Of a DNA stretch of 37,421 nt, positions 50 through 33,962 are shown piece after piece; positions within the stretch are counted from its first letter, which is position 1; each line of letters opens with the position of its first letter. The DNA lies in NCBI GenBank assembly GCA_946803715.1, contig CAMPET010000008.1, positions 256,399 through 293,819 of the forward strand. Reading direction: 5' to 3'. Origin of the DNA: Beroe ovata. Taxonomy: Eukaryota > Ctenophora > Nuda > Beroida > Beroidae. The notes under the pieces are model-generated. The model made no database searches. It was not told the DNA's origin and saw nothing but the letters and a program-made list of their open reading frames with translations. Made by a program: the position numbers and the translations under genes.

Positions 50-159
50 CTGTCAGCCTCCTCGTCACTGAGGGCAGGTCCAGTTTCTTCTCTGATAGCA
101 CCCAGAGTACACACTTGTTCTACAGCAGTGTTCTGATCTGCCATCAGATAAGATAGTTG
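50..159 (-). CDS. Spectrin-rod exon 22 (last in window)
   Basis: Acceptor GACATCGTTTCAG, donor ACAG|GTAGGA; 110 bp, phase 0 in, 2 out. Encodes QLSYLMADQNTAVEQVCTLG and ends PALSDEEADR. The repeat is incomplete, so the gene runs on past the left edge. Too short to stand out as an ORF; called from its splice sites and phase. Confidence 0.78.
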
Positions 160-329
160 CTGAAACGATGTCGTTGTAACAGACGTATTTTTGAATAAAT
201 CAGCACACTGAACACTTTCTAAATAATTAACTAGTAAGGTACTGTATTCTAAAGAAGGTCTTGACCGGCAAAAGACTCAAAAATTGAAATGAAACCGCGG
301 CAAGAACTACCAACCCTCAAAAAACTCAC

Positions 330-2906: not shown

Positions 2907-3549
2907 GTGCCGTGAGATATGTTATCAACGTAATTTTAAAGCAGCATAATGGGATATGCAGTTAGATTCTGATGCAGGGTCGAGCAATGGAGTTTCAGAG
3001 ATACATGAGTCTGGAACTTAGTGTAGAGCGTTGGGTATATATGGCAGAAGGTAAAACGGATAACAAAAATGAGGAAGCGTTATTGATTGTCATTACAACT
3101 AATGGACATCACGGTAAGGAATAATAAGAGTGAAATTATGGTCATGGCGTCAGGCATGTAATTATCTCTGTGAATGTAGCAGGCAAAGACCGAGAAGTAA
3201 CTTGCACTAAATAATATTCATATTGTGTATGATATCTCATATTGTCCAAGATGATCTGAGCTTAATAAGATCTTGCTAAAATTGGAGTGGTATGATGAAT
3301 AGTATAAATAGCATGATCCCCTCAGGGAAAACAGTAATAACTATTCATAAGTATAAATTTGTTCATTGCTGCAAGTTGTTAATTGGAGCAACATCATGTT
3401 ATGTATGCAAAAAATATTTCACCATGATGGCCCATATTACAGCAACAAAGGAGCAGAGGTTTTCTGAAGGAATCAATCTGTATTCAAATTTACGATATAT
3501 GTCTTCCATTAATAGCTCTAGTACCAATGAAAAAGAGGAAGTATAGTAC
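2907..3549 (-). other. Intronic region between exon 18 and the coiled-coil ORF
   Basis: About 640 bp with no supported exon. A plus-strand frame at 3292-3546 has no domain-like text. The lower part holds the TATA-like site at 3035-3042. Confidence 0.5.
3035..3042 (-). promoter_or_regulatory. Possible internal promoter (TATA box) before the coiled-coil ORF
   Basis: The minus strand reads CCATATATACCC about 130 bp upstream of the ATG at 2906, followed some 20-30 bp later by CTACACTAAGTTCC, where a start site could lie. Position and spacing suit a promoter; nothing else confirms it. Confidence 0.3.
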
Positions 3550-3700
3550 CTTGAAGTTTGTCCCATTTGCTGTTCATGTCGTCCAACTTATCAGCAATAG
3601 TCTGTCCATGTTCAGGGTCCGTCAGCAACTTGTAGTCCTCTCCAAGGTTGTTGGCAAGGTCAACGTCAGCTGACTTCATCAACATTGCATGCTGAATCTC
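3550..3700 (-). CDS. Spectrin-rod exon 18
   Basis: Acceptor CTGTGGTCACAG, donor CAAG|GTACTA; 151 bp, phase 0 in, 1 out. Encodes EIQHAMLMKSADVDLANNLG and ends LDDMNSKWDKLQ, a typical helix C. The following intron is the second long one and holds the coiled-coil ORF. Confidence 0.9.
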
Positions 3701-3791
3701 CTGTGACCACAGTTGAGTGATCTCAATATCGGGGATGGGGGAGATTTTTAACTTATCCGATGTGGAGAAGAAAAAAAACTGATCACATTAC

Positions 3792-4138: not shown

Positions 4139-4329
4139 CTGTCAAGGGGTGAAATGACTTAGTAGTCATCGACAAAAGCTGGTATAGCGGCGTGATTTAT
4201 CATGTTGCAGAAACGATAAACTCCAGAAAAAGATAGGGAGTCCTTCGCAAAACAGAGTAAATACCGTTTTTCAAATTGAGTTTGTTTCGGAAAGGACACC
4301 CAGAGATCCGTGTGAACTGGAACTCTCAC

Positions 4330-4498: not shown

Positions 4499-4586
4499 CT
4501 GAAAAAAGGTGGGGGTTATTATAAACGTTATCCGAAAGGAACAGTAGGTCATTGATTTGAATTATTCAACAGAAGGGCACTCTTAC

Positions 4587-5030: not shown

Positions 5031-5151
5031 CTGGAATCATTGAAATTTGTCAAGTTACCTATTAGTCACTCGGTAGGAACGAATACAGGGAGAATAGAAA
5101 ATTCAACCAAATTAAGAAAAGGAAGTTGATTAGTAATCGAATCAGATTTAC

Positions 5152-11875: not shown

Positions 11876-12219
11876 CTATGGGAGACAAAGGTTTCATCAA
11901 TAATAATTATAGAATTCATCAGAAAATTGAATTCCGGTTATACTCTTATAGTACCGTACATGATCAAATTTTATTCAAAACAATTTATTTCAAAGATAAA
12001 ATCTGAGATTCTGCCAAAAAAAACTGAAGAAGAAGACCCAATATTGCACCTTGTACCTACCTACGAACACTCAACATAACCTGTGGCTTATAAAAGACAT
12101 GACCCTTCAGCCTGCTGACTAACTAGCCTCACTCTCAACCTCACAGCCTTCAGAACTTAATTCATATATTACAAATTGAGTGATAATCATTATGATGATA
12201 CACGTGAAGGATCGTGAAA

Positions 12220-12226
12220 ACTCACC
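12220..12226 (-). other. Splice donor that overlaps the apparent stop of the giant ORF
   Basis: On the minus strand the sequence is TTTGG|GTGAGTTTTC, with the exon ending at 12226. The in-frame TGA (12224-12222) sits inside GTGAGT. The next exon begins at 11875 after CTCCCATAG and completes the split codon GG|A, so the protein continues. Retention of this intron would end the protein at LFG. Confidence 0.88.
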
Positions 12227-12450
12227 CAAACAATGAAGCAGTAGAGAATTGACGATCGATTTGGTTAAAGAGAGTTGAGGATGGAACTATCACTTTCTTC
12301 ACTGGCTGAGACTTGACTTCCGGGATGAAAACTGGGTCCTCAATTACGATGTCTTCTTCTCCAGATAGTGTCCGATCCAAGGTGTCGAATAAGGACGTTG
12401 AAGGAACTATACGTTTGGTGACCGGCTCAGATGATACTTCGGGGATGATA
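12226..12450 (-). other. Linker joining the beta repeats to the spectrin rod
   Basis: Two short imperfect repeats, VIIPEVSSEPVTKRIVPS-TSLFDTLDR and VFIPEVKSQPVKKVIVPS-STLFNQIDR, each led by an acidic stretch (DGEITVDEP; EEDIVIEDP). The exon then ends STASLFG and splices into NEEKYKEYERL. The P-S-x-x-L-F-x-x-x-D-R pattern could be a short linear binding motif; partner unknown. Confidence 0.6.
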
Positions 12451-15400
12451 ACTGGCTCATCCACAGTTATTTCACCGTCTGAAGATTCTGCCAGAGAATC
12501 AGAGTCGTAGTGGAATGGTTCAGCAGTGACAATATCTTCTGGCATGTCTGAGTCTGAGGAGTCAAACACCAAATCAAATAATCCCACCTTAGGAGGTCTT
12601 CCATGATGTTTTATGGGTACTGGTTGATCGTCATTCCCCTTTACAAGCTTTCCATCTTCATCGAAAACACAGTGCTTGTCATCAAGCTTCGGGAGTCCAT
12701 CACTTGAGATGCCAGCACGAAGAACTCGGTGATTCGGTCCTGTGAGTGGTCTACCTATTGGTAGCATAACCATACCTCTGTGAACTATTGGACCAGTTCC
12801 AAGAACCAACTTGGCTCCTTTCTCATCTCTCAAAGGATTGCCATTTGAACTAAGGATAAATCCGTCCTTGTCAGTTTGAGGACGCCCTTGTTTGTCTAAT
12901 TTTGCGATCAGAGGTTTCTTGAAAGTGGGGTGGAGATGAACATGACCATTTGGTCTGTAAATACGACCATTGAAACCAACATAGGGATTCTCACTGACAA
13001 AGATTCTGTTTCCATGCTTATCAACAAGTGGTTTCTTCTTGTGATCTCTCAAGTCACCAAATCTGCCAGCACGTACTCTTCCATCATCAGTGAATCCAAC
13101 TGTTATGGGGCTACCCTTGGTATCAGTCATTGTATTTCCATTTGGCAGATAGATATGACCAGTTGGTCCAACACGGGGACCATACAAACCACGTCCAAGA
13201 TGTATTGGAGCTCCATCTGGACCACTGAGAGGTGCACCCTCTCTACCCAACAAGCACCTTGACGTATCAACTCTTGGTTTCTTGTCACGATCAAGAGATA
13301 CCTTTATTGGATTGTTATCCCTGTCTCTCAATTCCTTGTTGTCACCTCCCATCAAGGTTCCATCTGGCTTGATTGTCAAAACACCCGGTCTTATGAACTT
13401 TCTTGTCTTTGGTTTCGATTGTGGTCGTTTACTGTATGGCTTCTTGACAACACCCACTGTATCACCAGGCACTGATTTCAGCGTAGGAACGCTCATCACT
13501 GGCTCATCCACAGTTATTTCACCGTCTGAAGATTCTGCCAGAGACTCAGAGTCGTAGTGGAATGGTTCAGCAGTGACAATATCTTCTGGTATATCTGAGT
13601 CTGAGGAGTCAAACACCAAATCAAATGATTCCACCTTAGGAGGTCTTCCATGATGTTTTATGGGTACAGGTTGATCGTCATTCCCCTTTACAAGCTTTCC
13701 ATCTTCATCAAAAACACAGTGCTTGTCATCCAGATTAGGGAGTCCATCACTTGAGATGCCAGCACGAAGCACTCTGTGATTCGGTCCTGTGAGTGGTCTA
13801 CCTATTGGTAGCATAACCATACCTCTGTGTACTATTGGACCAGTTCCTAGAACCAACTTGGCTCCTTTCTCATCTCTCAAAGGATCACCATTTGAACCAA
13901 GGATAAATCCATCCTTGTCAGTTTGAGGACGCCCTTGTTTGTCTATTTTTGCGATCAGAGGTTTCTTGGAAGTGGGGTGGAGATAAACATGACCATTTGG
14001 TCTGTAAACACGACCATTGAAACCAACATAGGGATTCTCACTGACAAAGATTCTGTTCCCATGCTTATCAACAAGTGGTTTCTTCTTGTGATCTCTCAAG
14101 TCACCAAATCTACCAGCATGTACTCTTCCATCATCAGTGAATCCAACTGTTATGGGGCTACCCTTGGTATCAGTCATTGTATTCCCATTTGGCAGATACA
14201 TATGACCAGTTGGTCCAACACGGGGACCATACAAACCACGTCCAAGATATATTGGAGCTCCATCTGGACCCCTGAGAGGTTCACCGTCTCTACCCAACAA
14301 GCACCTTGATGTATCAACTCTTGGTTTCTTGTCTTGGTCAAGAGATACCTTTATTGGATTGTTATCCCTGTCTCTCAATTCCTTGTTGTCACGTCCCATC
14401 AAGGTTCCATCTGGCTTGATTGTCAAAACACCTGGTCTTATGAACTTCCTTGTCTTTGGTTTCGATTGTGGTAGTTTTCGATATGGCTTCTTGACAGCAC
14501 CCACTGTATCAACAGGCACTGATTTCAGTATCGGAACACTAATCACTGGCTCTTCCACAGTTATTTCATCATCTGAATATTCTGTCGCAAAGCTTTCAAT
14601 GTTGTCATCAGAGACGAAATCATTGATCTTATGATCATTCAAGAGGTCGTCAAATGATATTTCATGAACAGTTTCTTCATCATTGTCAAAACCATCTGGA
14701 ATAACAAAGCATCCTAAACCAGCCATGAGAGGATTTGGATCACAGAGTGCAGTAAATTGATTTGAGATTATCACTGGGTTCATGTCTTTACCAGTTATGA
14801 AGTTATTAGATTGGTCAAGAACACATTTGCTATGATTGACCTTTGGATTACCACTTTCATCCCTACCAGCTTTAACGGGAAGTCCCGTGTGTTTATTTAT
14901 GACAGGTATGCCACATGGCATCATTAAAATCCCATCCTTATTAACGTATGGAAGATTCCCAATGATGACAGGGTTTCCATATATGTCCGTCACTCTGTTC
15001 CCTCCCTCATCAATTAAACAACCGCGATAATCCACTTTCGGCTGCTTAGTATTTTCATTGATGTGAGCCTTGAGTAAAGTGTCACCTTGTTGATTGAAAA
15101 GCGGAGAACCATCAGGTTCATATAGTACATCATCATAACCAATAAATGGGCATTCAGAGCAAAGCAGTGGGTTTTCGTTTCCATCCAATAACAGATCATG
15201 ATCAGGCGACAAAAGGTTGCCATCCTCATTTGCTAGAACACATCCATCAATACCAATACCTGCAATCACTGGCTTACTATCTGAACCAAGCACCTTTTTT
15301 CCCAATATGTCATAGACATGTCCATTTGGTCCTATTCGAGGACCATAAACACCTCTCCCTAGCTGAATCATAGTCCCATTAGGACCTATAAGTGGGCATC

Positions 15401-18400
15401 CTTTACTATCTATTAGACAACCCTCAGGATTGATGTATGGTTCGTTGCCATCATCCAAGTGTACTTTTAATGGCCGAAATTTCGGCGTAAGAATTGGCTC
15501 TTGAGATGCATCAATCAAAGTACCATTACAGGTGATATGTACTGCTCCTGGGACAATCTTTTCACGCAGATGGTCTGGACTTTCTAGATCCCTAGAATGA
15601 ACCCCTGGCTCAGTTATTTCTGATATTTTAGGTGCTAAGTTATCTTCTGACTGTTTATTCACATAGTCTTTAATAGGGTGCTTGATGTCACTCATAAAAT
15701 TGATTTGAGATATATGTGTTGCATCAGTATCATATGGCAATCCTTTCATTTGCCCTGGCTCACTGATTGTTTCTATACTTTCACTGTTGCCATGAGATTG
15801 CTTGAGCCTTACCAAGGGATAAATGACTTGGATCTTCTTTGCTGTCTTACTGGGAAATACTGTGAATTTTATGGGTGATTGAGGAATCTCTGAATCACCA
15901 ACAAAAATATTGGTCAAATGGACTCCAGGTATGCCAGGTCTTATGACAATATTTATCAGCTTCGCAAACTTGCCTTCTAAAAGCGTCACCGAATCACTGC
16001 TGGAACTGTTCACATGATGACTAACAACCCTTACATCTTCTATCTGAATGCCTGCTATCGGGATAATAAGCATTTGGTTTGAAAGAACGACAAGGTCCTC
16101 TTGTTTTGTATAGCTTTGCAGGGGCTTTCTGAGAACAGGCACTTCAACAGCAGTAATGAGTATACTCACTGGAAATCCTGGCAGACGAACTTTTCCAGCC
16201 ATGAGATTGATCTTGTATGATCCAGGACAGGAAGGTATGAATGATAAAGATATTATCGGTTTCAGTGGATCATATTTTCTCAATCGAACAATCTGAATCA
16301 TTCCTATCGGACCAACAACTGCTGTACAAATTGTCTCATATGAATGATTCTGTAAGTTGAACTGCATGGTCATCTCAAGACCATCAAACTGGAAGAGCTT
16401 ACGATCAGTACCGAGTTCAATGCAACTCTTTTTCAATGGGCAAGAGAAGATGAACCTAAAAGCTGGTCGCAACAGCAGAGGTTGATTTGGTTGTTTGAAG
16501 AAAGGAACAGGGCTTCTGTCAAAGACTTCGGAAGTACAGGTTGGTGTATCTTGATCAGACACATGTACAAGAACAGTCATTATGGCTACCAAATCATCTT
16601 CATCCCTGATCATGCATATTGTGTGACGTCCTGGTGATTTTGGCTCAAAATTAACAAGAACTTCATCTGTAATTTGGTTAACTGAAGTTGATGATGGTAT
16701 ATTTTCGAAGTCTGGACCTTTGCAAATGGACTCCAATTTGTCGAATTGAAACCGTGGGGGAATGTCAAATACTAAAACCACTGCTTTTCCATGTGTAGAT
16801 GGCGGTCCATGGAAAATAGGATGCTCTTTCAATGGAGCATCATCTAGCAGGCTGAAGAGGTTTGGTTCATATACACAGAAGTTGATTATAAGAGGCTCAC
16901 ACACAAGTTTTTCATCATGATACATAGATAGAACATAGGTCCCAGTCTGTCTTGCTTCACAAACAACAAAGCTCCTACCATTTTCTTGAATAGTTTCAGT
17001 TGTGATATCAGAATCCTTTGGCCTTTTACAGAGAAAGACAAGCTGATTAAAAATGGGAGTGGAAACTTCGAGGATGATTCTATTGCTTATACAAGTTGGA
17101 GTTCCAACGATTTTCGGCATCAAATGTTCATCAACTGATGGGTCTGCTTTTCTGGATATAGGAGACTTCAGTTCCAGACTAGAACTTGGCTTTTTCATAG
17201 TGAATGAAAGGTTCGGCTCAATAGACTTGACATTGATTATAAGTGGTCCACCAGGTAAAATGACAGAGTCTAAAAGAAAGAAAACCCTGTAAACTCCAAG
17301 TGACTTTGGCTTGATTACAACCTCCATATTCTTTTCATGATGTTGTGTGTCAACAGGATATGGCTTCTGGTCAGCATCTGAACAATGAACTTCAATCTTT
17401 TCCCAATGCTCGGAAAATAAAGGAATTAGTATCTTACTATGCTTTTGCCGAGGTCTTCCTCTAATACTTGGGAATGAAATTATGGGGCACACATATTCTT
17501 CAAGTGAAAAGGAAATTATCTCTTCATTTTTATATTCCACATGAAGGATGGTAGGTGGAAGAATATCAATAAAACCCCAAGTAACCTTTTCAATCAGATA
17601 CGGCCCAGGACAGTGAGGACTCAGAGTAACAACAAACTTGTTCTCCTCGGGCAAAATGCCAACAGTTAAATCTTGATAGTTTGGATCTTTGCAAATAACA
17701 TCGACATTCCTTTCAAGACCACTTGGAACCTCGAACGGTATTTGAATTGTATTGTTGACAAGAACTGATCCATCTCTCACGAGGACAGGCAAATACATTT
17801 CAGAACCTATTATATAGAGTTGGGCACAACTGGATACAAATTTTACTTCAATAACTAAAGCAAGATTTGCAGCCAAAATAGGATCGTGCTCACTGACAGC
17901 AAAAACCTTAAGTTCAAATATTCCATAAGTTTGTGTTGGTATCTTGATGATTGCTTTGCTATGGATAACCGTTGCTTTCAGTGGTATCTCTTTTCCCATG
18001 AAAGTACATTGAGCTCGCAATTTGACATCTTCAGGAGCGTTGAAGCAAAGCTTAGTAACACCATTTCTCAACTCTGGCTTACAATAGAGGCTTATTTTTG
18101 GCAAAGTAGATGAAATATCAGGGCTTTGAGGGCTTGGTTGCAATGTAAGTCCAATGATCTCAGCAGGTTCATCATCAAATGAAACAGTTTCCACAACATC
18201 CGGAATTCGTGGACCAGCCATAGAAAAGTCAAGAGTCGGATAGTAAGATTCCGAAGAGTTTTCCTCAAGTAATCCTAGCTTTTCTAGATAATTTGTTCTC
18301 TCAACTGGATGAGTTGAATTTTCGGGAATTTCTTCATCAACTTCTATATCATGTAGAGAAGAATCCGATGACAAAATCGACACACCCTCACAGAAAATCA

Positions 18401-21400
18401 CATCTTCACTAACATCTTCATCACTCTTCAGATCGGGTTTATTTGATCTTGGAGCAAGTTCTTCTTGGTCACTCTCCAGGGAACTATCATCACTTGAAGA
18501 TGACTGAATCTTGCCATACACCTGTTTCTCTTGAGGCGCATATCCAGAAACATCGCTATATTTCACTGCTGCTTCTTTACTGCAGTCAACTCCCATTGGT
18601 GCATCAAATTGACCTAATCCAGCCATATGAGGGTCATAACACTCATTTGGCTGAGGACCAATAGCATGCACAGGTTCAACAACATGATCTGATATTGTTG
18701 GAACTGGTTCCTCAGTGGTAGCATCATCCACAGATTCTGAAGAGGAAGAAGTTGGATATCCTGGAGCTGAAGCAACAGGCTTGATATGGATAATACCTTC
18801 ATCTTCACTCGAAGATTGTCTTGAACCGGCTTCATATGATTCTTGTTCTTCTTGGCCACTTTCCAAGGAACTATTATCACTTGATGTTGACAAAATCTTA
18901 CCAGGCACATGTTTTTCTAAAGGTGCAAATCCAGGAACATCATCACATATCACGGCCGGTTCTCTGCTAATGTCAACTCCTTTTGGTAAATCTGATTGAC
19001 CTAATCCAGCCATGAGAGGGTCATGATACTTATTTGGCTTAGGACATCCAGCATGTACAGGTTCAACAACATCAACTGATATAGTTGGAGCTGGTTCCTC
19101 AGTGGAAGCATCATCCTCAGATTCTGACGAGAAAGAAGTTGGATATCCTGGAGCTGAAGCAAGAGGCTTGACAGGGGCAATAACTTCATCATTTTCAATT
19201 GAGGATGGTTTTAAACCAGGTTCCATGGTTTTTTGTGCTATATCATGATTTCTCCTTGGTCTCTCCTTCTTTTGTGATATTCCTTGTGGCTCATCATCAA
19301 TTTTCCTCCAACTCATCTTGGGTTTCTCTGGAAGCTCCTCAGACTCACTGGGAGCATCCTCACAACGAGGGACATCTTTCAAGGTTCCAACTTTGAGTGG
19401 GCCTTTCTTCCTTTCAAGATAAGCAGGCATTTTTGGAGGTTCTTCCTCAACTTCTATATCATGAAGTGATGTATCAGATGATGGAATCGGCACACCCTCA
19501 CAGAGATTCACACTGTCACTATCATCTTCATCACTTTTCACATCAGGTTTAGGAGATCGTGGGACATCTTCTTCTTGGTCACTTTCCAAAGAACTATCGT
19601 CACTTAAAGATGACTTACTCTTACCAGGCGGTTGATTCTCTACAGGTGAATGATCAGAAATATCTCCAGATGTCATGAGCAGTCTCTCATTATCATCAAT
19701 TCCTTTCGGTTTCTCAGACCTTTCATGCACAGGTTCAACAACATCAACTGATATAGTGGGAGCTGGTTCCGCAGTAGTAACATCATCCTCAGATTCTGAC
19801 GAGGAAGATGTTGGATATCCTGAAGCTGAAGCACCCGGCTTGACAGGGGTGATAACTTTATCATCTTCAGCTGAAGATGGTTTTGAAACAGGTTCCATGA
19901 CTCTTAGTGTTTCATCATGATTTCGCCCTGGTCTCTTCTTCTTTTGTGATATTCCTTGTGGCTCATCACTCATTTTCCTTCCACTCATCTTGGGTTTCTC
20001 TGGAAGCTCCATATACTCAATTAGAGTATCCACATCAAGAGCGACATCTTTCGAGGATCCAACTCTGAGTGGGCGTTTCTTCTTATCAAGATGAGCAGGC
20101 ATTTTAGGAGTTTTTTCTTCAACTTCTACATCATGCAGAGATGTATCAGATGATGAAATCGACACACCCTCACAGAGATTTACATAGTCACTAACATCTT
20201 CATCACTCTTCACGAGAAGTTGATGTGATCGTGGAGCATGTTCTTCTTGGTCACTTTCCAATGAACTATCTTCACTTGGAGATGACCTTATCTTACCAGG
20301 CATGAGCAGTCCCTCATGCACATCTATTCCTTTCGGTTTTTCAGATCCTACAAATCCGGCCATGTGAGGGTCATAATATCTATTTGACCCAGAACCACCA
20401 GCATGTACAGGTTCAACAACATGAACTGGTATAGTTGGANCATGCAGTGATGTATCAGATGATGAAATCGACACGCCCTCACAGAGATTTAAATTGTCAC
20501 TGAAATCTTCATCACTCTTCACATCAGGTTGCTGAGATCGTGAAGCATGTTCTACCTGATCACTTTCACAAGAACTATCTTCGCTTGAAGATGACCTCAT
20601 CTTACCAGGCATGACCAGGGTCTCATGTACATCTATTCCTTTAGGTTTCTCAGACCTTACAAATCCGGCCATGTGAGGGTCATAATATCTATTTGGCCCA
20701 GGACCTCCAGCATGTACAGGTTCAACAACATGAACTGCTATAGTTGGAGCTGGTTCCTCAGTGGTAACATCATCCTCAGATTCTGAGGAGGAGGAAGTTG
20801 GATATCCTGGAGCTGAAGCAACAGGCTTGACAGGGGCAATGACTTCATTACCGTCACTTGAAGATGGTTTAGAACCAGGTTCCACGGATCTTGGTTCAAT
20901 ATCATGCTTTCGCCTTGGTCTTTTCTTCTTTTGTGATATTCCCTGTGGCTCGTCACTCATTTTCCTTCCACTCATGTTGGGTTTCTCTGGAAGCTCCAGA
21001 GACTCACATGGAACATCTTCATTACCAGGAGCATCTTCCAGGAATCTGACTTTGAGAGGGTCTTTCTTTCTATCTAAATCAGGCATTCTGGGAATTTCTT
21101 GCTCAACCTCCACATCATGCAGAGATGTATCAGATGATGAAATCGACACACCCTCACAGAGATTTACATTGTCACTAACATCTTCATCACTCTTCACGAG
21201 AAGTTGATGTGATCGTGGAGCATGTTCTTCTTGGTCACTTTCCAATGAACTATCTTCACTTGGAGATGACCTTATCTTACCAGGCATGAGCAGTCCCTCA
21301 TGCACATCTATTCCTTTCGGTTTTTCAGATCCTACAAATCCGGCCATGTGAGGGTCATAATATCTATTTGACCCAGAACCACCAGCATGTACAGGTTCAA

Positions 21401-24400
21401 CAACATGAACTGGTATAGTTGGAGCTGGTTCCTCAATAGTAACATCATCCTCAGATTCTGAGGAGGAAGAAGTTGGATATCCTGAAGCTGAAGCACCAGG
21501 CTTGACAGGGGTGATAACTTCATCATCTTCACTTGAAGATGGTTTTGAACCAGGTTCCATGACTCTTGGTGTTATATCATGATTTCGCCTTGGTCTTTTC
21601 ATCTTTTGTGATACTCCCTGCGGCTCATCACTCATTCTCCTTCCACTCATCTTGGGCTTCTCAGGATAATCCACAGACTCAATTGGAGCATCCTCATTAC
21701 AAGGAACATCTTCCAGGGATCTGACTTTGAGAGGGTCTTTCTTCCTATCTAAATCAGGCATTCTTGGAGCTTCTTCTTCAATTTCTACATCATGCAGAGA
21801 TGTATCAGATGATGAAATCGACACACCCTCACGGAGATCTACATTGTCACTGACATCTAAATCACTCTTCACATCTGGTTTATGAGATAGTGAAGCATTC
21901 TCTTCCTGGTCACTTTCCAAAGAACTATCACCGTTCGAAGATGATGTTTTGGTATCAGGCGCATGTTTTTCTATAAGCGCATATCCAGGAATATTGTCCG
22001 ATTTCAAGACTGGTTCCTCATAAAACTCGACTCCTTTTGGTGCATCAGAATGTCCTAATCCAGCCACGTGAGGGTCACTATATCTATTTGGCCCAGGACC
22101 TCCAGCATGCACAGGTTCAACAACATGAACTGATATAGTTGGAGCTGGTTCCTCAGTGGTAACATCATCCTCAGATTCTGAGTAGGAGGAAGTTGGATAT
22201 CCTGGAGCTGAAGCAACAGGCTTGACAGGGGTAATAACTTCATCATCTTCACTTGAAGAAAGTTTTGAACCAGGTTTCACGGATCTTGGTGTTATATCAT
22301 GATTTCGCCTTGGTCTTCTCTTCTTTCGAGATATTCCCTGTGGCTGATCACTCATTTCCCTTCCACTCATGATGGGTTTCTCTAGAAGCTCCACAGACTC
22401 ACATGGAGCATCCTCATTACGAGGAACATCTTTCAAGGTTCCAACTTCGAGAGGGCCTTTCTTCTCATCTAAATCAGGCATTCTGGGAGTTTCTCTTTCA
22501 ACTTCTATATCATGCAGTGATGTATCAGATGATGAAATCGACACACCCTCACAGAGATTTAAATTGTCACTGACATCTTCATCACTCTTCACATCAGGTT
22601 GCTGAGATCGTGAAGCATGTTCTTCCTGGTCACTTTTCAAAGAACTATCATCACTTGAAGATGACCTTATCTTACCAGTCATGAACAGTCCCTCATGCAT
22701 ATCTATTCCTTTCGGTTTCTCAGATCTTACAAATCCGGCCATGTGAGGGTCATAATACCTATTTGGCCCAGGACATCCAGCATGCACAGGTTCAACAACA
22801 TGATCTGATATTGTTGGAGCTGATTCCTCAGTGATAGCATCATCCACAGATTCTGAGGAGGAAGAAGTTGGATATTGTGGAGCTGAAGCACCTGGCTTGA
22901 CAGGGGTAATAACTTCATCATCTTCACTTGAAGATGGTTTTGAACCAGGTTCCATGACTCTTGGTGCTATATCATGATTTCGCCTTGGTCTTTTCATCTT
23001 TTGTGATATTCCCTGCGGCTCATCACTCATTCTCCTTCCACTCAACTTGGGCTTCTCAGGATGCTCCACAAACTCAATTGGAGCATCCTCATTACAAGGA
23101 ACATCTTCCAGGGATCTGACTTTGAGAGGGTCTTTCTTCCTATCTAAATCAGGCATTCTGGGAGTTTCTTCTTCAACTTCTACATCATGCAGAGATGTAT
23201 CAGATGATGAAATCGACACACCCTCACAAAGATTCTCATTGTCACTGACATCTTCATCACTCTTCACATCAGGTTTATAAGATCGTGATATATGTTCTTC
23301 CTGGTCACTTTCCAAAGAACTACCATCGCTTGAAGATGACGTTTTCTTACCAGGCGTATGTTTTCCTATAGGTGCATATCCAGGAATATTGTCCGATTTC
23401 AAGACTGGTTCCTCATAAAACTCGACTCCTTTTGGTGCATCAGAATGTCCTAATCCAGCCACGTGAGGGTCATTATACCTATTTGGCCCAGGACCTCCAG
23501 CATGCACAGGTTCAATAACATGAACTGATATTGTTGGAGCTGGTTCGTCAGTGATAGCATCATCCACAGATTCTGAGGAGGAGGAAGTTGGATATCCTGG
23601 AGCTGAAGCAACAGGCTTGACAGGGGTAATAACCTCATTATCTTCACTTGAAGATAGTTTTGAACCAGGTTTCACGGATCTTGGTGTTATATCATGATTT
23701 CGCCTTGGTCTTCTCTTCTTTTGAGATATTCCCTGTGGCTCATCACTCATCTCCCTTCCACTCATGATGGGTTTCTCTGGAAGCTCCACAGACTCATATG
23801 GAGCATCCTCATTACGAGGAACATCTTTCAAGGTTCCAAATTCGAGAGGGCCTTTCTTCTTATTTAGATCAGGCATTCTGGGAGTTTCTCTTTCAACTTC
23901 TATATCATGCAGTGATGTATCAGATGATGAAATCGACACACCCTCACAGAGATTTAAATTGTCACTGACATCTTCATCACTCTTCACATCAGGTTGCTGA
24001 GATCGTGAAGCATGTTCTTCCTGGTCACTTTCCAAAGAACTATCATCACTTGAAGATGACCTTATCTTACCAGGCATGAGCAGTCTTTCATTATCATCAA
24101 TTCCTTTCGGTTTCTCAGATCTTACAAATCCGGCCATGTGAGGGTCATAATATCTATTTGGCCCAGGACCTCCAGCATGTACAGGTTCAACAACATGAAC
24201 TGCTATAGTTGGAGCTGGTTCCTCAATAGTAACATCATCCTCAGATTCTGAGGAGGAAGAAGTTGGATATCCTGGAGCTGAAGCACCAGGCTTGACAGGG
24301 GTAATAACTTTATCATCTTCACTTGAAGATGGTTTTGAACCAGGTTCCATGACTCTTGGTGTTATATCATGATTTCGCCTTGGTCTTTTCATCTTTTGTG

Positions 24401-27400
24401 ATATTCCCTGAGGCTCATCACTCATTCTCCTTCCACTCAACTTGGGCTTCTCAGGATGCTCCACAAACTCAATTGGAGCATCCTCATTACAAGGAACATC
24501 TTCCAGGGATCTGACTTTGAGAGGGTCTTTCTTCCTATCTAAATCAGGCATTCTGGGAGTTTCTTCTTCAACTTCTACATCATGCAGAGATGTATCAGAT
24601 GATGAAATCGACACACCCTCACAAAGATTCTCATTGTCACTGACATCTTCATCACTCTTCACATCAGGTTTATAAGATCGTGATATATGTTCTTCCTGGT
24701 CACTTTCCAAAGAACTACCATCGCTTGAAGATGACGTTTTCTTACCAGGCGTATGTTTTCCTATAGGTGCATATCCAGGAATATTGTCCGATTTCAAGAC
24801 TGGTTCCTCATAAAACTCGACTCCTTTTGGTGCATCAGAATGTCCTAATCCAGCCACGTGAGGGTCATTATACCTATTTGGCCAAGGACCAACTGCATGC
24901 ACAGGTTCAACAATATGAACTGATATTGTTGGAGCTGGTTCCTCAATGGTAGCATCATCCTCATGTTCTGAGGAGGAAGAAATTGGATATCCTAGAGCTG
25001 AAGCAACAAGCTTGACAGGGGTAGTAACTTCATCATCTTCACTTGAAGATGGTTTTGAACCAGGTTCCATGGCTCTTGGTGTTATATCATGATTTCGCCT
25101 TGGTCTCCTCTTCTTTTGAGATATTCCCTGTGGCTCATCACTCATTTCCCTTCCACTCATGATGGGTTTCTCTGGAAGCTCCACAGACTCACATGGAGCA
25201 TCCTCATTACGAAGAACATCTTCCAGGGATCTGACTTTGAGAGGGTCTTTCTTCCTATCCAAATCAGGCATTCTGGGAGCTTCTTCTTCAACTTCTACAT
25301 CATGCAGAGATGTATCAGATGATGAAATCGACACACCCTCACAAAGATTCTCATTGTCACTGACATCTTCATCACTCTTCACATCAGGTTTATAAGATCG
25401 TGATATATGTTCTTCCTGGTCACTTTCCAAAGAACTACCATCGCTTGAAGATGACGTTTTCTTACCAGGCGTATGTTTTCCTATAGGTGCATATCCAGGA
25501 ATATTGTCCGATTTCAAGACTGGTTCCTCATAAAACTCGACTCCTTTTGGTGCATCAGAATGTCCTAATCCAGCCACGTGAGGGTCATTATACCTATTTG
25601 GCCCAGGACCAACAGCATGCACAGGTTCAATAACATGAACTGATATTGTTGGAGCTGGTTCCTCAGTGGTAGCATCATCCTCATGTTCTGAGGAGGAAGA
25701 AATTGGATATCCTGATGCTGAAGCAACAGGCTTGACAGGGGTAATAACTTCATTATCTTCACTTGAAGATAGTTTTGAACCAGGTTTCACGGATCTTGGT
25801 GTTATATCATGATTTCGCCTTGGTCTTTTCTTCTTTTGAGATATTCCCTGTGGTTCATCACTCATTCTCCTTCCACTCATCTTGGGTTTCTTAGGATGCT
25901 CCACAAACTCAGATGGAGCATCCTCATAACGAGGAATATCTTTCAGGGATCCAACTTCGAGAGGGCCTTTCTTCCTATCAAGATGTGTAGGTATTCTGGG
26001 AGTTTCTCTTTCAACTTCTATATCATGCAGTGATGTATCAGATGATGAAATCGACACACCCTCACAGAGATTTAAATTGTCACTGACATCTTCATCACTT
26101 TTCACATCAGGTAGCTGAGATCGTGAAGCATGTTCTTCCTGGTCACTTTCCAAAGAACTATCATCACTTGAAGATGACCTTATCTTACCAGGCATGAGCA
26201 GTCTCTCATTATCATCAATTCCTTTCGGTTTCTCAGATCTTACAAATCCGGCCATGTGAGGGTCATAATATCTATTTGGCCCAGGACCTCCAGCATGTAC
26301 AGGTTCAACAACATGAACTGCTATAGTTGGAGCTGGTTCCTCAATAGTAACATCATCCTCAGATTCTGAGGAGGAAGTAGTTGGATATCCTGGAGCTGAA
26401 GCACCAGGCTTGACAGGGGTAATAACTTTATCATCTTCACTTGAAGATGGTTTTGAACCAGGTTCCATGACTCTTGGTGTCATATCATGATTTCGCCTTG
26501 GTCTTGTCATCTTTTGTGGTATTCCCTGAGGCTCATCACTCATTCCCCTTCCACTCATCTTGGGTCTATCTGGAAGATTCACAGACTCACAAGGAACATC
26601 TTTCAAGGTTCCAACTTTGAGTGGGACTTTCTCCCTATCTAGATTTGCAAGCATTTTTGAAGTTTCTTCCTCAACTTTTATTTCATGCAGTGATGTATCA
26701 GATGATGAAATCGACACACTATCACAAAGATTTACATTGTCACTTACATCTTCATCGCTCTTCAGATCAGCTTCATGTGATTGCGGGACAAATTCTTTTT
26801 GGTCACTCTCCAAAGAACTATTGTTACTTGAAGAACCATCACTTATTGAAGTTGGTTCTACTTGAACACGAATGAGCTCTTCCATTGATGTATATTCAGG
26901 ACCAGTAATAGATGGTGTTATTGGATCATCGCAATGATCATCTCTCTTGGGTGCGGTAGGCTGTCCCGATTCAGCCATATCATCAGAATTTGTTGGCAAT
27001 GGAATCTCACTGTGTATGGGTGTAACAGCTTGAACTGATATGATTGGTGCTCCCTGGTAAACATCATCACTCTCAGACATTGGGAAAGAATAAGCTGTAT
27101 ACCCTTGTGGTGAAGCAACTGGTTTGATTGACATAGCAATTTCTTCATCTCCGCTTGTGTTTGGAGGTCCTCTAGGAGATGATCTTTGACCTGGAACTTT
27201 GGTTCTGGGTGTAGTTGAATGAGGTTTCTTTCGTTTCCTTTTCTTTTGTGAAATTCCTTGTGGCTCGCCATGCATTTTCTTTCCACTCACCAAAGCATCT
27301 TCCTCAAGTTCTATTTCATGATCAGATGAATCTGATGATGAAATCGGAACACCTTCGCAAAGACTCATTTCATCACTCATCCCTTCCACGTCATTTCTTG

Positions 27401-30400
27401 AATGAGGCTCATCTGCCTTTTGTTGAGATATTAGGGCATATTCTTCGATGTCACTTTCTAAAGAACTGTTACTAACTGAAGTTGGCTTCATCTTACCAGG
27501 CTTGGGCTCTTCCACTGATGCATATTCAGAACCAGTCTTGAATACTATAGATGGTCTTTTATTATACTCATCAAGTCCTTTCGGTGGGTCAGACTGTCCC
27601 AATCCAGCCATATGAGGACCATAAGATTTCCTTGGCAATGGAATCTCACTGTGTACAGGTTCAACAACTTGAACTAAAATGGATGGTACTCCCTGTTCAA
27701 CATCAATGTTCTCTGCTTCTGAGGGAGAAGAAGATGTATACCCCTGTGGTGAAGCAACTGGCTTATATTGTTCTACTGTTTCATCATTTTCTTCACCTCC
27801 AATTATGTCAGGAGAATCTCTAGGTCGTGTGTCTGAACCCGGGAGTTTGGTCCCTTGTGTAATGATATGATATTTCTTAGACTTCCTTTTCTTTTTCGAG
27901 ATTCCTTCTGGCTCGCCATCCAATTTCTTTCCACTCATCAATGGTTTCTCAGGACACATCCCCATCACCTTTCCATCACCTGCCTTTAATGATTTTGATT
28001 TGGAAGTACTTTCTAGCCTAGCCACAATCGATTCATATGCAGACATTGGTCGAGATGATTCATCTGATTTCATATCGGCATGCAATGGTTGACGATGATC
28101 CACGGAAACTTCTTGGATGAGAGCATCATCTTCAAAGTCTTTGGAAGAATCAGATTCATCACAAATATCGCTCAATTCCATATCATATGGGTCAACATCT
28201 AAGCCAAAATCAACATTCGATGTTGGAGAGTACCTATCATCCCATAATTTCACGCCGTCAGGCATTTTTCCTAACCGCAATCCAGCCATCATTGGTCTAT
28301 ATTGCTCATCAAGCTCAGGTCGAGGTTGATCATGGAGGTCGACAAACCCATCTGCAAGAATCAACTCAGAATCCAGATTCGCAATGTTGAAAGTACGATC
28401 AGGTTCACCTTGATATTCATACTCTTCTAAGTCAGGTGATTCCACAATAGACACATCAACGTTATCGTGAATTTCTCCGGCCTTAAATTCGATTTCAAGG
28501 ACTTCCCTTTTTTCTACCTGGTCTCTGGGTCTCAACTTTGCCTCCTGTGCTTGGAAACCAAATTCAACTGATCCGTGTTCACCACTCCTATTGGTTGAAG
28601 TCTCGTCATCCATTTCGATCATAGTTACAGGACTTTCTGCTTCAGTTGGCGTGGTTTCATCCATGTTTAAAGCCAGTCGACCTCTCACAAAACATATTTC
28701 TAGAACAATCTTTATCGGGATTCTATGGGTACCCCAATACAATCTTTTGAATGTGTATCTGCCAGGTTTCTTTGGTTTGATTACAAGATCAACTCGTTCT
28801 TCAGTTGCTTGCATTTCAAATGGAAACTTTTTCAAGTCAGGATCAAAGCATTGTACAGTCATTGTATTATCTGGAACCTCATGAGTATCAAATGAGATGA
28901 TGATACTTTTGCCCTGAACCCTAGGAGGTCCTTCATATTTTGGCAGGATGGGCTTTGATATGATCAGTTTTGCTGGACTATCTTCAATAGGATATCCACT
29001 GTTACTGGTGTTTATGATGTGCAACCCAGTCTCAGTAACAGGGAAGCTAAACTGGTAACAATTGTCTGGTAGTGACAAAGGGAAAACATCTTTCGAAACT
29101 CCGGAAGGCTGAAGAATGTTTGCACAGAGCTCAACACCCTTTTCTGGCAGAGTATTTTCAATGATATATTCAATCCTTCCATCAGTCAATTTAAAGTTCC
29201 TACGGTTAGGATATGGAACAATCTTACATCGCTTATCACAAACTGGCCCCTTTACAATTAACACCATTGGACTAAGAGGCAGATGTGCTTCATTTAACCA
29301 AACATTCAAGACATATTCCCCTCCATTATCAAAAGGGATGGCTATCAATACCAGTTCGGCGTTTTTCCTTGTGATGGTGATTGGCACAGAGTAATTCATA
29401 TTGATATGCTGGCATTCCACGTGTAGAGACGCTAGATTGTTTTCATCAATAAGAACAGGTAAATGCAAAGTCTGGTTTGAGTGTATTGTGGTATTCCTGA
29501 TGTCAGGAAACAAGATGGGCTGCCTGATCAGGGATTCAGGCATCTTAATTCTTCGTGGTGAATCAAAAATGTGATTGCCACAATTCTTTACAGTGACCTG
29601 ATACAAACCAGGCTGTTCAGCAGGCAAATCAAACATGAATGTGGAATCTTCATCTCGAGTAGGGTACAACTTCATATGTTTTCCCGATGGCAGGATTGCT
29701 GACACATCCAAACTTGCTTGAAAATGAGGGGATGTGTTTTCAACTTCAAATTTGATGTTGCCATTATGAAAAGAAAATATCCCTTCGCCCTCTTTCTTTT
29801 TGAATATGCACTTTGTGTCAAAAATAGGTCCTTCAACAGCGAATCGCATTGGGCTCGAATAAACATGTTCCTGGTTCAGACAGATACTCAGCTCATATCT
29901 TCCTCCATAAGCCATTTTTAGGGTAACAATGATTACTGAGGAGTCACGAGTACTGATCTTAGTTGGAACTTGAAAACCAAGATCTAAATGCACACATGAT
30001 ATTTCCAAATCTGGAAGGAATTTTTCATCTATATAAACAGGAAGTGTTATTATCTGTGGTGCTCTTATCACAATATTTTCAATGTTAGGAAATTTGGCCA
30101 GAGGTTGCTCAAGCTGCACATTTGATTTCGATAAGTGCATCGATTGAGAATGTCTGATGTTTATGTCAGGTTGTTCATCAGCAGATTGGATGGTAGAGAT
30201 CTGAACTGTTCTAGGACTGTCAGGTATGTGCCTGCCAAAGTTAGTAACAGAAAATTCATGTGATCCCACTTCAACTGGAGAGAAGTTGAACATATAGAGG
30301 ATATCAGAAATTGACTTTGAAGAAAGTGTCTGCTGCGAACCTGAAGGTTGAATAACTTCAGCCAAAAGTTCAACAATCTTCCCTGGTTGCTTATTCTCAA

Positions 30401-33400
30401 TCTCAAATTCGATTACTCCATTGTTGTAGTTGAAAACATGATCATCCGGCTGCTTCTTGAACTCGCACTGAACATCATAGACTGGACCATGCACAAAAAA
30501 TTTCATGGGACTCTTAGGTGCATGGTTACCACCAATCATAAAGTTAAGCGCATAATTTCCACCATTTGTGAGTACTAGTGTGAGAACAGGCTTGCCTTCA
30601 GGTTCATCTAGTGTAACTGGGACTTCGTAATCAAGATCCATATGAAAACAAGTAACTTCCAAAGATGACATATCTGATGTATCAACATGGAGTGGCAGCT
30701 TCAACACCTGATTCACGAGAATCTTGGAATAACTGATGTCTGGGAATCTAACTGTAATTTGCCTCGGATCCGATAAAATGTTCGAGATTTTTATCATTCG
30801 TGGACTGCCAGCAATTGGACGGTTCCAGTTCTCCACAATGAAGTCGTGAGAACCTACTTCTACAGGAACAAACTGAAAATTTAGGAGCGATTCCAGTTTC
30901 TTCGTAGGAAACAAGGTCACGTAGACACCGGATGGCTGCATTACCTTTGCACATACGCTCATGCTTTTGTCAGGCTTCATGTTTTCCACATCAAAAGAGA
31001 CTGTTCTATGGTCAAAGGTAAAGGCTTGGCCATTTGGACCCTTCTTGAATACACATTGGTCATCATAAACCGTTCCTTCTACGAAGAATGAGGTTGGACT
31101 GCTAACGGCATCCTCACCACGCACTCTAAAGTGCATGTCATAACTTCCACTGTTGGTTATAGGAAGAATAACCAAAACCTTCTTAGGATCAGAACAATCG
31201 AGGGATAATGGGGTCTCCGAATTCAAGTCTTTATGAACACATGTCACGATAAGGTCGGATAATTCGTCTTCATCAACACGGATAGGGAGTTTCAACACCT
31301 GATTTGGCACTAATTGCATCTTGCTGATATCTGGAAATTTGACTTTGGGCCGTTTTCTTGCCGATTCTGCAGCTGATATCATGATTGTTCTAGGGGTGTC
31401 AAGAATTGGACGCCCATAATTCTGAATCACAAAATCGTGAGAACCAGTTTCAACTGGAGCGAAGTTGAATGAGTAAAGACTCTCACTCGATGTGTCATGT
31501 TGGAAGATTTTAATGGATGAACTTGAGGGCTGGATGACTTCAACGTGTAAATCAGTTGGTTTCTCAGGCTGGGTGTTTTCAACTTGAAAGTTGACACTAC
31601 CACTTGTTATAGTAAACACATGATCATCAGGTTGGTGCTTCTTCAAGACGCACTGCATATCATACACACATCCCTCGACATGGAACTTCATGGGGCTCTG
31701 AGAGGCATGTTTACCTCTGACAAGAAAACTCAACTCATAGTTTCCACCATTGGTAAGGATAATCGTTGCAACCATCTTGCCAGAGTCTGCAGGATCATGA
31801 TCAATGATCACTGGTACGGGATAATTGAGATCTATCTGTCTGCACAGAACTTCAAGATGCGAAGAATCTTCCTTGTGAATATGTATGGGGAGCTTCAGAA
31901 TCTGATTGGGAAATATCTGTGTTTTACTAATATCAGGGAATTTCACTGTGGGCTTGTTCATATTCTGGTCCACAGCAACACCAACTTTGACAGTTCTTGG
32001 GCTATTAACAATAGGTCTTCCCATGTTTTCGACGATGAACTCATGTGATCCAGTTTCAATCGGAGCGAAATTGAACTTGAACAATGAGTCATCAAGGGCT
32101 TCACTAGTGAGTTCTGTTACAATGCCTGATGGCTGGAGTACAGTCACTGCCAGCTCACCACTTCGTTGTGGCTGCAAATTTTCAACCTCAAATTCAATGC
32201 TCCCTTCATTGAATATGAAAATTTGCTCGTTATCGTGAATCTTGAAAACATATTGCATGTCATACATCGTACCCTCAGCTGATATAGCCATGGGGCTATT
32301 TGGAGCATGATCGCCATCTACAAGGAAGCTCACTTCATATGTTCCTCCATTGTTGAGAGTTAGTAAGGCCATCACTTTTCCTTCTTCGTCTTTTTCAACA
32401 GTGACAGGGATACTGTAATCGAGTTCCATGTGATGACACAAAACACACAGCTTGGGGAGATCACCATCGTGAATGAGGACATGCATTTTCAGAGTCTGGT
32501 GAGGACTCAGAGTCATGGCCCTTATATCGGGGAACTGCACGTTTGGCACTTGCCTCATGGTCGATGGAGGAAGACCACAGATGAACAATTCCCTTGGACA
32601 TTCTGGGATAAGCAACTTGTCAAGGAATACTTTCACCGTATAAATTCCATTGGTGGGAGGTTTGAAGTTGTATGTCAGGGTTCCCATGATATCATCCGAA
32701 TCGAGCGCTAGAATCTCTCCACTAGGTGTATCCACGAATGCTGTGACTGTCCCTGAACCGGCAGCACTAGCATCTACCTGGAAGGTGACACGACCACTCT
32801 CCCAAGAGAATTTATAGTTACTTGGTTGCCTGACAAATGAGCAGGCACCTGGTCCTGACGAATCCTTGACATTGAAAATGAATGGACTGTTTTCAACGTC
32901 CTTTCCAGATAACTTCACGATGAGCAAATGTTTCCCGGGGCCTTTCAAACTGATGGAAGCAGTGAACATGCTCCTGTTATCCAATGTCTGCACTAATTCC
33001 ACATCTAGGAAAGTATTGGATTCTACATGGACACACGCCACTCGCAAATCCCTTACATCATCAGTTGCAAACAGCATGGGAAGGCGATGTGTGTGGTTCG
33101 GCTTCAAGGAGAGCTCGTTGAAATCGGGTAACCGCACATCGGACGAGTAACTGGAGGGGGAATCCTCCTCATCAAAAGATGTGTCCATCAATAGGAGGCG
33201 CTGTTCTTCAGGAATATGGAAGATACGTCCTGAATGTCTATCTCCACCGAACTTCGATGGTGTCCGAACATTTATTGGAGTGAAGCCAAGCTCATCGGTT
33301 TCGCCCAGAGCTATGTCAGGGGCATCAGACATGTTGTCAAAACTGCTGTACTGAGGACTGGTGGTAGCTTTTCCTTCATCACTCAGAGACTCGGAGGGGG

Positions 33401-33962
33401 AGGGATGATCTGCCATCACTGGTGCCACGAGTTCCACTGATGCAAAACCAGATTCCTCATCACTGAGAACATCAACATCACAAGTGATCAGTAACTTGTT
33501 AGGTGATGTCAGTTCTACCTTCTCTGTGTTGAGGGCAGATATGACCTTGGTCTTTGTTAAAACCTCTTTGGCCAGCGTGGAAAAGGAAACTCTCTCCGTT
33601 CTCATAAACTTACCCCACGTGTAAGTTAGTGGCGATACAGGTTCAGTGGAGCGATTCAGAACCTGTGTTCGCAATCTTGTTGTCCTGACAACGGTCGTGT
33701 GATCATCTATCTCTTCACACGTGACAAGGTCACTTCTCTCAGCCTGACTCATGAAGTCAGCCAGGCGCCTGAATCCGTCAGGGGTAACAATCAATGATCC
33801 ATCACGTGCCCTATCAATGAGACCAGATTCTATCAATTCATCAATCTCTTGGCAGATGGTCCCCTGCAGGATGTGAGGTAGAGCTAAAACTACCTTACTG
33901 GAGCAGGAGCGCGGGTTTGCTAAAAGATAAGTGTAGATATCCTGTCTATCCGAGTTTGACAT
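12226..33962 (-). CDS. Giant exon 1: winged-helix-like / filamin-Ig / disordered repeats / beta repeats (7245 codons)
   Basis: An uninterrupted frame of about 21.7 kb. I place the start at ATG 33962; the GTG just before it is not needed, and an in-frame TAA lies 18 nt upstream. Approximate residues: 1-75 winged-helix-like; 75-270 acidic, Ser-rich; 270-1757 about 15 filamin-type Ig modules; 1757-2000 acidic linker; 2000-5240 tandem 225/240-residue disordered repeats; 5284-6054 seven divergent Ig modules; 6141-6414 and 6473-7170 Gly-rich short beta repeats; 7170-7245 linker with two copies of a PSxxLFxxxDR motif. There is no signal peptide or membrane segment, so it is probably cytoplasmic. It ends in phase 2 at a GTGAGT donor and reads into spectrin exons. 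One N at 20440 makes the true length uncertain. The position just before a spectrin rod matches the giant isoform-specific exons of spectraplakins, but the content differs. Upstream coding exons could lie outside the window. Confidence 0.9.
12451..14544 (-). repeat. Two 1047-bp tandem direct copies encoding Gly-rich beta repeats
   Basis: Copies at 12451-13497 and 13498-14544 align without any length change: matching points at 12451/13498/14545 and 12591/13638 are each exactly 1047 bp (349 codons) apart, and differences are scattered single bases. Each copy encodes a Ser/Asp/Glu linker (DGEITVDEPV), a basic KPYxKxPQSKPKTRKFIRPG segment, then about ten hairpin-like units such as VLTIKPDGTLMGxDNKELRD, LYGPRVGPTGHxYLPNGN and VYRPNGHVYLHPT. 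It looks like a recent unequal-crossover duplication within the exon. Function unknown. Confidence 0.92.
14720..15540 (-). other. Gly/Asp/Asn/Pro short beta-type repeats, older divergent copy
   Basis: Short repeats of about 20-30 residues of the form G-x-Phi-x-D-x-x-G-x-P-Phi-x-x-x-x-G: LIDSKGCPLIGPNGTMIQLG, VYGPRIGPNGHVYDILGKKV, VLANEDGNLLSPDHDLLL, LIDEGGNRVTDIYGNPVIIG. Alternating hydrophobics and Gly/Asn turns suggest beta-hairpins in series. This block is the diverged relative of the two 1047-bp copies that follow. It is not the plakin repeat, which is about 38 residues and helical at its end. It ends with NPLMAGLGCFVIPDG, the motif shared with the disordered array. I do not recognise the family. 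Confidence 0.55.
15800..18110 (-). other. Filamin-like Ig array 2: about 7 divergent modules
   Basis: After the disordered array the translation returns to beta-strand text with the same endings as array 1: PGPYLIEKVTWG, LGVYRVFFLLD, TGTYVLSMYHDE, PGRHTICMIRDE, PGSYKINLMAGKVRLPGFPVSI and PGVHLTNIFVGDSEIPQSPIKFTV. The last two carry the filamin-type closing strand (xPxFP / xPQSP). Spacing is about 330 bp per module. They are single, not in pairs, and much more divergent than array 1; some could be degenerate Ig folds of another family. They share FDIPP/PPRVQGK-like openings with the last single module of array 1, which suggests that the disordered array expanded between once-adjacent Ig modules. 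Confidence 0.6.
18790..18870 (-). other. Unit with internal deletion near the end of the array
   Basis: In coding order the text jumps from SSLESGQEEQ straight to GSRQSSSEDEGIIHIKPVAS. The acidic SISSSDTSLHD section and the MSGRK/basic block are absent, so two partial units are fused. The frame is intact. A neighbouring unit near 19710 similarly lacks the DPHMAG section and mixes short- and long-type text. Confidence 0.7.
20440..20440. other. Single N inside the repeat array: probable assembly gap or collapse
   Basis: The only ambiguous base in the window. In coding order the left flank stops inside SISSSDTSLH (about 530 bp into a short unit) and the right flank resumes at PTIPVHVVEP (about 220 bp into a unit). 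Marker spacing across it is 987 bp rather than the 1350 expected for two short units. At least about 365 bp of repeat, or more in whole units, is therefore missing, though the frame happens to be kept. Confidence 0.85.
27960..28690 (-). other. Acidic linker between Ig array 1 and the disordered repeat array
   Basis: Translation is rich in Asp, Glu, Ser and Pro, with no predicted fold I can name. It includes the first copy of a recurring motif (RPMMAGLRLGKMPDG, near 28290), so the motif is present before the tandem array proper begins. It ends where the first basic KKRKSKK block starts, near 27890-27930. Confidence 0.6.
28690..33150 (-). other. Filamin-type Ig array 1: about 7 module pairs plus one
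   Basis: A ~195-200-residue unit recurs about seven times. Each has an A module opening with a KFPDISKxQLxPNQVLKLP-like line, containing TNGGxYELSF and ending SPMKFxVEG, then a B module opening YDxQCVFKK, containing a QPSG turn and a FNFxPVExGSHDFxV line, and ending with a GRPIxxSPRTxxI strand. The QPSG turn, the GSHxFxV strand and the closing xSPR/xSPM strand are hallmarks of filamin repeats (Ig-FLN). QPSG-equivalent sites fall near 32130, 31530, 30930, 30340, 29690 and 29105, so the spacing is about 585-650 bp. A last single module (28690-28930) retains the KPGRYTF and IPIKI strands. The strict A/B alternation recalls the paired Ig domains of filamin rod 2, but the A modules lack a clear G-xYxVxF-xG-x-IPxSP consensus and are divergent. 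Confidence 0.8.
33740..33962 (-). other. N-terminal winged-helix-like segment of the giant exon
   Basis: The first ~75 residues read as helix (RQDIYTYLLANP), helix (SSKVVLALPHI), a longer helix (ICQEIDELIESGLI), a turn with beta strands (DRARDGSLIVT), then a last helix (PDGFRRLADFM). The EIDELIESGLI-x-R-x-x-DGSLIVTPDGFRRL pattern is what the recognition helix, wing and following helix of winged-helix domains look like. This is pattern reading only. Such a domain could mediate protein or nucleic-acid contact; in a cytoskeletal giant the former seems likelier. A strong internal splice acceptor (TTATCTTTTAG, exon side from 33919) could bypass the first helix. Confidence 0.4.

Follow-up and report, generated by a model that had tools for sequence, protein, structure and literature searches.

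A giant filamin-like exon ahead of a spectrin rod, a possible alternative front module of a spectraplakin-like gene

Can filamin-type Ig domains and a spectrin rod be parts of one gene product? The Ig domains of filamins are force-responsive and provide binding sites for partners, and spectraplakins link actin, microtubules and, via plectin repeats, intermediate filaments. The question arises from a stretch of 37,421 nucleotides (G000:C8:256399-293819; hereafter the window), which lies in an assembly of 77.8 Mb and 534 contigs, the one used in all own-genome searches. The preliminary description of the window proposed a single gene, in which a frame of 7245 codons leads into a spectrin rod of 21 exons, possibly a lineage-specific spectraplakin whose plakin-repeat exon had been replaced. 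A search against Rfam gave no matches at gathering scores.

The minus strand carries an uninterrupted stop-to-stop frame of 7251 codons (33977..12222), the first ATG of which is found at 33962. An in-frame TAA (33980-33978) is located 18 bases upstream, and in the short open stretch between the two no pyrimidine-rich acceptor can be seen by eye; ATG 33962 would therefore be the natural start. From this ATG to a GTGAGT donor, the giant exon (12226..33962, minus strand) comprises 7245 codons and two bases. The sole non-ACGT base of the window, one N at 20440, falls inside the Ser/Glu/Pro/Asp array of this exon, and the 306 bases after the codon with this N copy an earlier array unit at 305 of 306 positions, so the unit number, and hence the exact figure of 7245 codons, is assembly-dependent. 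A second N with near-exact copies at its flanks (two like copies of GAS2) is present elsewhere in the genome, at G000:C85:187679-188209, and both look like unresolved assembly joins duplicating a unit. Inspection of both flanks of the window, as proposed earlier, revealed N gaps of 9273 N to the left (C8:247126-256398) and 41142 N to the right (293820-334961). These large gaps and the unit copied beside the single N would be compatible with an assembly artefact bringing unrelated exons together; however, since the window has no ambiguous base apart from 20440, no join is marked from the second half of the giant exon to the rod, and such an artefact is considered very improbable.

The giant exon begins with an N-terminal region of about 278 residues (33129..33962, minus strand). 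A search of the own genome with the first 290 residues gave the self-match only at E <= 0.1, and a single-sequence structure model of 170 residues (pLDDT 36.8) was too poor for structural search. Behind it lies a first array of 15 filamin-type Ig domains (28725..33128, minus strand), and a second, divergent array of 5-6 such domains is found further on (15873..17768, minus strand). Pfam Filamin (PF00630) matches seven stretches in the first 2000 residues of the exon with E 1.5e-46, which is the positive outcome of the Ig-FLN profile check suggested in the preliminary description, and of the 17 PDB sequence matches of the Ig region 16 are named filamin and one gelation factor. An HMM seeded by the 15 Pfam matches of a filamin encoded on contig C10 and iterated on three proteins detected 15 Ig-FLN domains at residues 284-1751 and five at residues 5404-6035 (E < 0.01), with one further at E 0.62; these E-values hold for a three-protein search. 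The modules are thus of filamin type as had been stated, but their number is 20, or 21 with the weak one, instead of about 22. Whereas the Ig-FLN array expected of a filamin is present by Pfam, PDB and HMM matches, no N-terminal CH actin-binding domain was detected in the exon or on contig C8, and the sequence upstream is an N gap.

Between the two Ig arrays, a tandem array rich in Ser, Glu, Pro and Asp, of about 3600 residues, was delimited by composition, motif spacing and TRF (17769..28724, minus strand; residues ~1757-5330 by composition). Its motifs recur at spacings of 226, 480, 225, 240, 225 and 465 residues. The array is, judged by its composition, probably disordered. Among 21 array unit pairs, the four above 70% identity show dN/dS of 0.59-0.75, and thus constraint on this array looks weak. 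The Gly-rich beta repeats described earlier were recovered as three Gly/Pro/Asp blocks on the minus strand, of which block 3 (12564..13388) is 94% and the divergent block 1 (14727..15551) 31% identical to block 2 (13611..14435). For blocks 2 and 3, dN/dS is about 0.31. The structure model of a beta-repeat block shows short strands at regular spacing (pLDDT 63); a Foldseek search with this model was negative at E <= 0.001, with TM-scores of at most 0.18 among the 50 of 187 matches listed. The giant frame ends after these repeats, outside any recognised Ig domain, where a filamin would carry its C-terminal dimerising Ig domain.

The origin of the giant exon is illuminated by a second locus of the same genome. 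A giant filamin is encoded on the plus strand of contig C10 (G000:C10:222535-239365), where an open frame of 4979 codons follows a match to CH at 222535 that has to be read through two stops (E 1.3e-4). This frame contains 18 Ig-FLN domains (E < 0.01), placed at both ends with one mid-frame; the Gly/Pro/Asp repeats that separate them span about 3000 residues. Near the end of the frame, a donor at 238892 joins in frame to an Ig-FLN exon at 238994; this is one of three in-frame pairs listed, picked since the Ig strand continues across it. We know of no described filamin that resembles this one in having a giant Gly/Pro/Asp array within one frame. A protein from another data set, P0008, is related to the C10 filamin, with 59% identity in an alignment of 1479 columns, and it carries the same Gly/Pro/Asp array.

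Block 2 of the window fits best at one particular place of the C10 array, where 259 collinear residues align at 45% identity with a score of 219 bits; the next places reach at most 169 bits. The controls remained far lower, with at most 73.2 bits for 20 ten-mer block shuffles, 33.5 bits for 20 residue shuffles and 37 bits for the reversed block. Since the match stands above shuffled controls, at least the beta-repeat part of the giant exon is filamin-derived, and from this sequence comparison we conclude that it shares ancestry with a giant filamin exon. The Ig arrays are less specific in this respect. For 15 of the 18 neighbouring Ig pairs of the window, the best C10 match lies in the C-terminal pairs of C10 (residues 4519-4915). 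However, the pair identities are low (19-35%), and P0003, a filamin of an unrelated locus with 53 domains, outscores C10 for 9 of the 18 pairs; the Ig arrays therefore show kinship with filamins, not descent from C10. P0003 (5469 aa, source ena) has CH among its listed Pfam domains, and its Ig-FLN domains, counted with the iterated HMM, are arranged in long near-identical units. Most simply, the whole giant exon would share the ancestry of its beta-repeat part. The two loci have in common Ig-FLN domains and the same Gly/Pro/Asp array; in contrast to the C10 filamin, the giant exon has no CH domain in the exon or on contig C8, possesses an added Ser/Glu/Pro/Asp array and is followed by spectrin exons.

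The spectrin exons, 21 in number, extend on the minus strand from 11875 to 50, at 11875-11725, 11557-11399, 9084-8914, 8809-8657, 8549-8031, 7872-7699, 7554-7371, 7239-6798, 6712-6541, 6438-6226, 6128-5857, 5721-5457, 5358-5152, 5030-4587, 4498-4330, 4138-3792, 3700-3550, 1053-878, 765-629, 522-330 and 159-50. All have AG/GT borders and agreeing phases, and with the giant exon they give 8848 codons in all without a stop, so that the earlier observation of a 7245-codon frame whose donor leads in phase into 21 phase-consistent exons is borne out. The suggested profile check was positive here as well, as a 1567-residue query, with the last exon left out, matched Pfam Spectrin in eight stretches (E 1.7e-65). 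The named relatives of the rod found by search are MACF1 of two vertebrates, and a EukProt model of 929 residues, P0004, is identical to the rod at 494 of 895 aligned positions (55%). When one of the MACF1 matches, P0006 (2009 residues), was compared with the own genome, five matches were obtained, three at GAS2 places and two at rod places, and both of the latter fall in the window. The rod is thus likely of spectraplakin type, as judged from these similarities. PF25034 (Spectrin_SYNE1) also matches the rod, and the best PDB match is dystrophin; nesprin or dystrophin identity is regarded as less likely, as both matches are non-specific and PF25034 is also listed for both MACF1 matches.

Two of the rod introns contain open frames on the minus strand. 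An intronless frame at 1182-2906, within the intron between exons 3700-3550 and 1053-878, encodes 574 residues from its ATG, is coiled-coil-like and gave no Pfam family above cut-off. It is probably a nested single-exon gene on the same strand as the rod; its use as an alternative last exon was rejected, as no phase-matching acceptor is seen by eye near its start. The second, putative frame (9366-9812) is located in the long intron 11398-9085 and is rich in Ser, Gly and Lys, with PSGV/RSGV repeats.

Whether the giant exon and the rod are joined depends on one intron of 350 bases, which is free of any assembly gap. At the end of the giant frame the donor GG/GTGAGT (the slash marks the exon border) has the in-frame TGA inside it (12222..12227, minus strand). 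With splice-site scores trained with the misplaced sites of the last two rod exons included, this donor reaches 6.89, a score attained by 2.4% of 2103 GT sites and lying among those of the gene's remaining donors, and the acceptor at 11875 reaches 2.73, with 18.5% of 2743 AG sites as high. Between 12220 and 11700 this acceptor is outscored by six or more AG sites, and the GT sites 12588 and 12061 (within 12700-11876) outscore the donor. The first rod exon opens with a phase-2 acceptor, matching the phase-2 donor of the giant exon; an exon further upstream that ends in this phase is therefore to be expected. On this basis the splice join 12226/11875 appears plausible. A single gene is favoured by the unbroken sequence, by the position of the stop within a fair donor, by the phase and by the first rod exon having the build of an internal exon, and by the precedent in the same genome, the C10 giant frame, whose donor joins in frame to an Ig-FLN exon. 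It is disfavoured by the weak acceptor, the higher-scoring AG and GT sites nearby and a pair of AATAAA hexamers in the intron. It is also disfavoured by protein data. No protein with both Ig-FLN and spectrin was found in searches limited by length and shared words (matches for 1 of 2288, 4 of 7991 and 1 of 5705 candidates), and the first 29 residues of P0004 have no alignment to the end of the giant exon, although the P0004 model may start in an intron.

The hexamers, two possible poly(A) signals found by a scan of the 350-base intron (11970..11989, minus strand), are placed 233 and 247 bases past the TGA. In the other predicted rod introns the scan listed no more than an ATTAAA at 11579, apart from three hexamers that fall within the nested frame 2906-1182. 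The two AATAAA hexamers are consistent with two transcription units, the first being a divergent filamin gene of one exon and without CH, which terminates at TGA 12222, is polyadenylated near 11960 and sits just before, or in an intron of, a spectraplakin-like gene with upstream exons in the 41-kb gap. The ATG of the giant exon itself and the weakness of acceptor 11875 would fit such an arrangement, as would the C. elegans FLN-2 example, for which the consulted part of the source gives CH-less isoforms and Ig-FLN arrays split by long lineage-specific stretches (PMC3143143). However, the stop sits in a fair donor of the right phase, and the acceptor of the first known rod exon is 350 bases away; moreover, the open frames read in the 3.4 kb to the right of the giant exon, before the gap, include no CH, plakin or spectrin exon. 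This explanation is regarded as unlikely. The co-occurrence of the donor and possible poly(A) signals also agrees with both outcomes arising from one gene, a filamin-only isoform by intronic polyadenylation and a filamin-spectrin isoform by splicing, which is judged improbable as a specific proposal. Taken with or without such an additional short isoform, one gene is fairly probable from these sequence features. The particular proposal that the window is the middle of one spectraplakin-like gene, from what may be a ctenophore, with the giant exon as an alternative first coding exon spliced to the rod, is held with somewhat less assurance, as the one preferred here by a modest degree.

If the window is part of a spectraplakin-like gene, then its CH, plakin, EF and GAS2 parts would fall in the assembly gaps. 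Profile searches gave no CH or plakin match on contig C8, where 41 kb of N lie to the right, and no GAS2 match, the expected place of which is the 9.3-kb gap. An SH3_10 (plakin) match on contig C3 was discarded, since its neighbourhood resembles, by eye, a WW/SH3 protein and not a plakin. Beyond the left gap, a tail rich in Ser, Arg and Gly was read by eye on the same strand as the rod (C8:245765-246594). It contains KSGIPR, which we take to be an SxIP-like motif recalling the microtubule-binding end of spectraplakins. Comparison of the tail with the MACF1 matches gave no meaningful BLAST similarity; it may be part of the same gene as the rod. Of the spectraplakin features, only the rod was recovered, the others being in gaps or absent, and thus the gene is not filed as a full member of the family. 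GAS2 matches in the genome are found on C344 and, twice around an N, on C85. On C85 (L046, L029), spectrin-like exons precede the GAS2 exon on the same strand, which probably represents a second spectrin-GAS2 gene; inspection by eye shows no EF hands from the final spectrin-like exon to GAS2. As C85 also gives the best GAS2 match with the P0006 query, it may be the main spectraplakin of the genome, a point against the reading preferred here.

Pfam detected no plectin repeats in the giant exon, and an exon-by-exon search of the own genome gave none at E <= 1 among the matches listed. According to the available portion of PMC9145010, plectin repeats are reported solely from the spectraplakins of deuterostomes and protostomes; if the host is non-bilaterian, there would thus have been nothing to replace. 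Of the notion of a lineage-specific spectraplakin, the rod of spectraplakin type is retained as likely, given its MACF1 relatives and the SxIP-like tail past the gap, but the replaced plakin-repeat exon is not upheld, as the genome search detected no plectin repeat and the beta-repeat part is akin to the C10 filamin; on the same evidence a plakin-repeat origin of the giant exon finds no support. A more fitting description of the locus is that a giant exon derived from a filamin occupies the position that plectin repeats hold in bilaterians.

Comparison with described systems gives partial likenesses. In the sections of PMC11989829 at hand, the plakin repeats of MACF1b sit between the plakin domain and the rod, and MACF1b-type spectraplakins thereby resemble the window in having a large module ahead of the spectrin rod in the same relative place (PMC11989829). 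However, the module of the window consists of filamin Ig domains, a Ser/Glu/Pro/Asp array and Gly/Pro/Asp repeats, and no plectin repeats were detected in the genome. Filamins are mechanical force sensors, and C. elegans FLN-2 and Drosophila jitterbug have many divergent Ig-FLN repeats split by long lineage-specific regions, as well as isoforms without the actin-binding domain; in contrast to the window, neither a spectrin rod nor a Gly/Pro/Asp array is mentioned for them in the accessible part of that paper (PMC3143143). Reduced spectraplakin-like forms are described in sponge and placozoan, and these, together with Nematostella spectraplakin-like proteins, are comparable as early-animal relatives with reduced module sets, but the consulted text mentions no giant filamin-type exon (PMC9145010). 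The domain order of the window is not described in the literature searched, so far as its text was available, and no paper there contains both ‘ctenophore’ and ‘spectraplakin’; most subscription papers lay outside the reach of this search.

If the preferred reading, an alternative first coding exon joined to the rod, is correct, then the following course can be proposed. The giant exon, akin to a giant filamin, would be used with its own ATG, and its transcript would be spliced at 12226/11875 onto the rod exons, giving an elastic linker that itself lacks a CH actin-binding domain. Partners would be bound by the filamin Ig arrays, perhaps through the kind of strand addition seen in filamins, the acidic Ser/Pro array might act as an entropic spring, and the Gly/Pro/Asp repeats may form a regular beta stalk, from which the rod would lead to a C-terminal microtubule-binding tail. 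The Ig domains ahead of the rod could in this way tie membrane or adhesion partners to microtubules. In an isoform without CH, actin binding would be provided by upstream exons or by a partner, and in its mode of action the protein would resemble a spectraplakin isoform that carries a foreign module at its front.

In evolutionary terms, we lean slightly towards the view that a spectraplakin of an early-branching animal captured a duplicated filamin exon, together with its spring and beta-stalk arrays, as an alternative front module; the single gene would then encode a protein exceeding 8800 residues, an independent counterpart of the bilaterian plectin-repeat isoforms. If this is true, a giant cytoskeletal linker of unusual kind would result, and the slot before the rod, filled in this way in a lineage without detectable plectin repeats, would look like an evolutionary docking place for giant interaction modules. 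The locus would then offer a testable example of an exon passing from one cytoskeletal family to another by capture, with a bearing on the origin of very large mechanical proteins in early animals.
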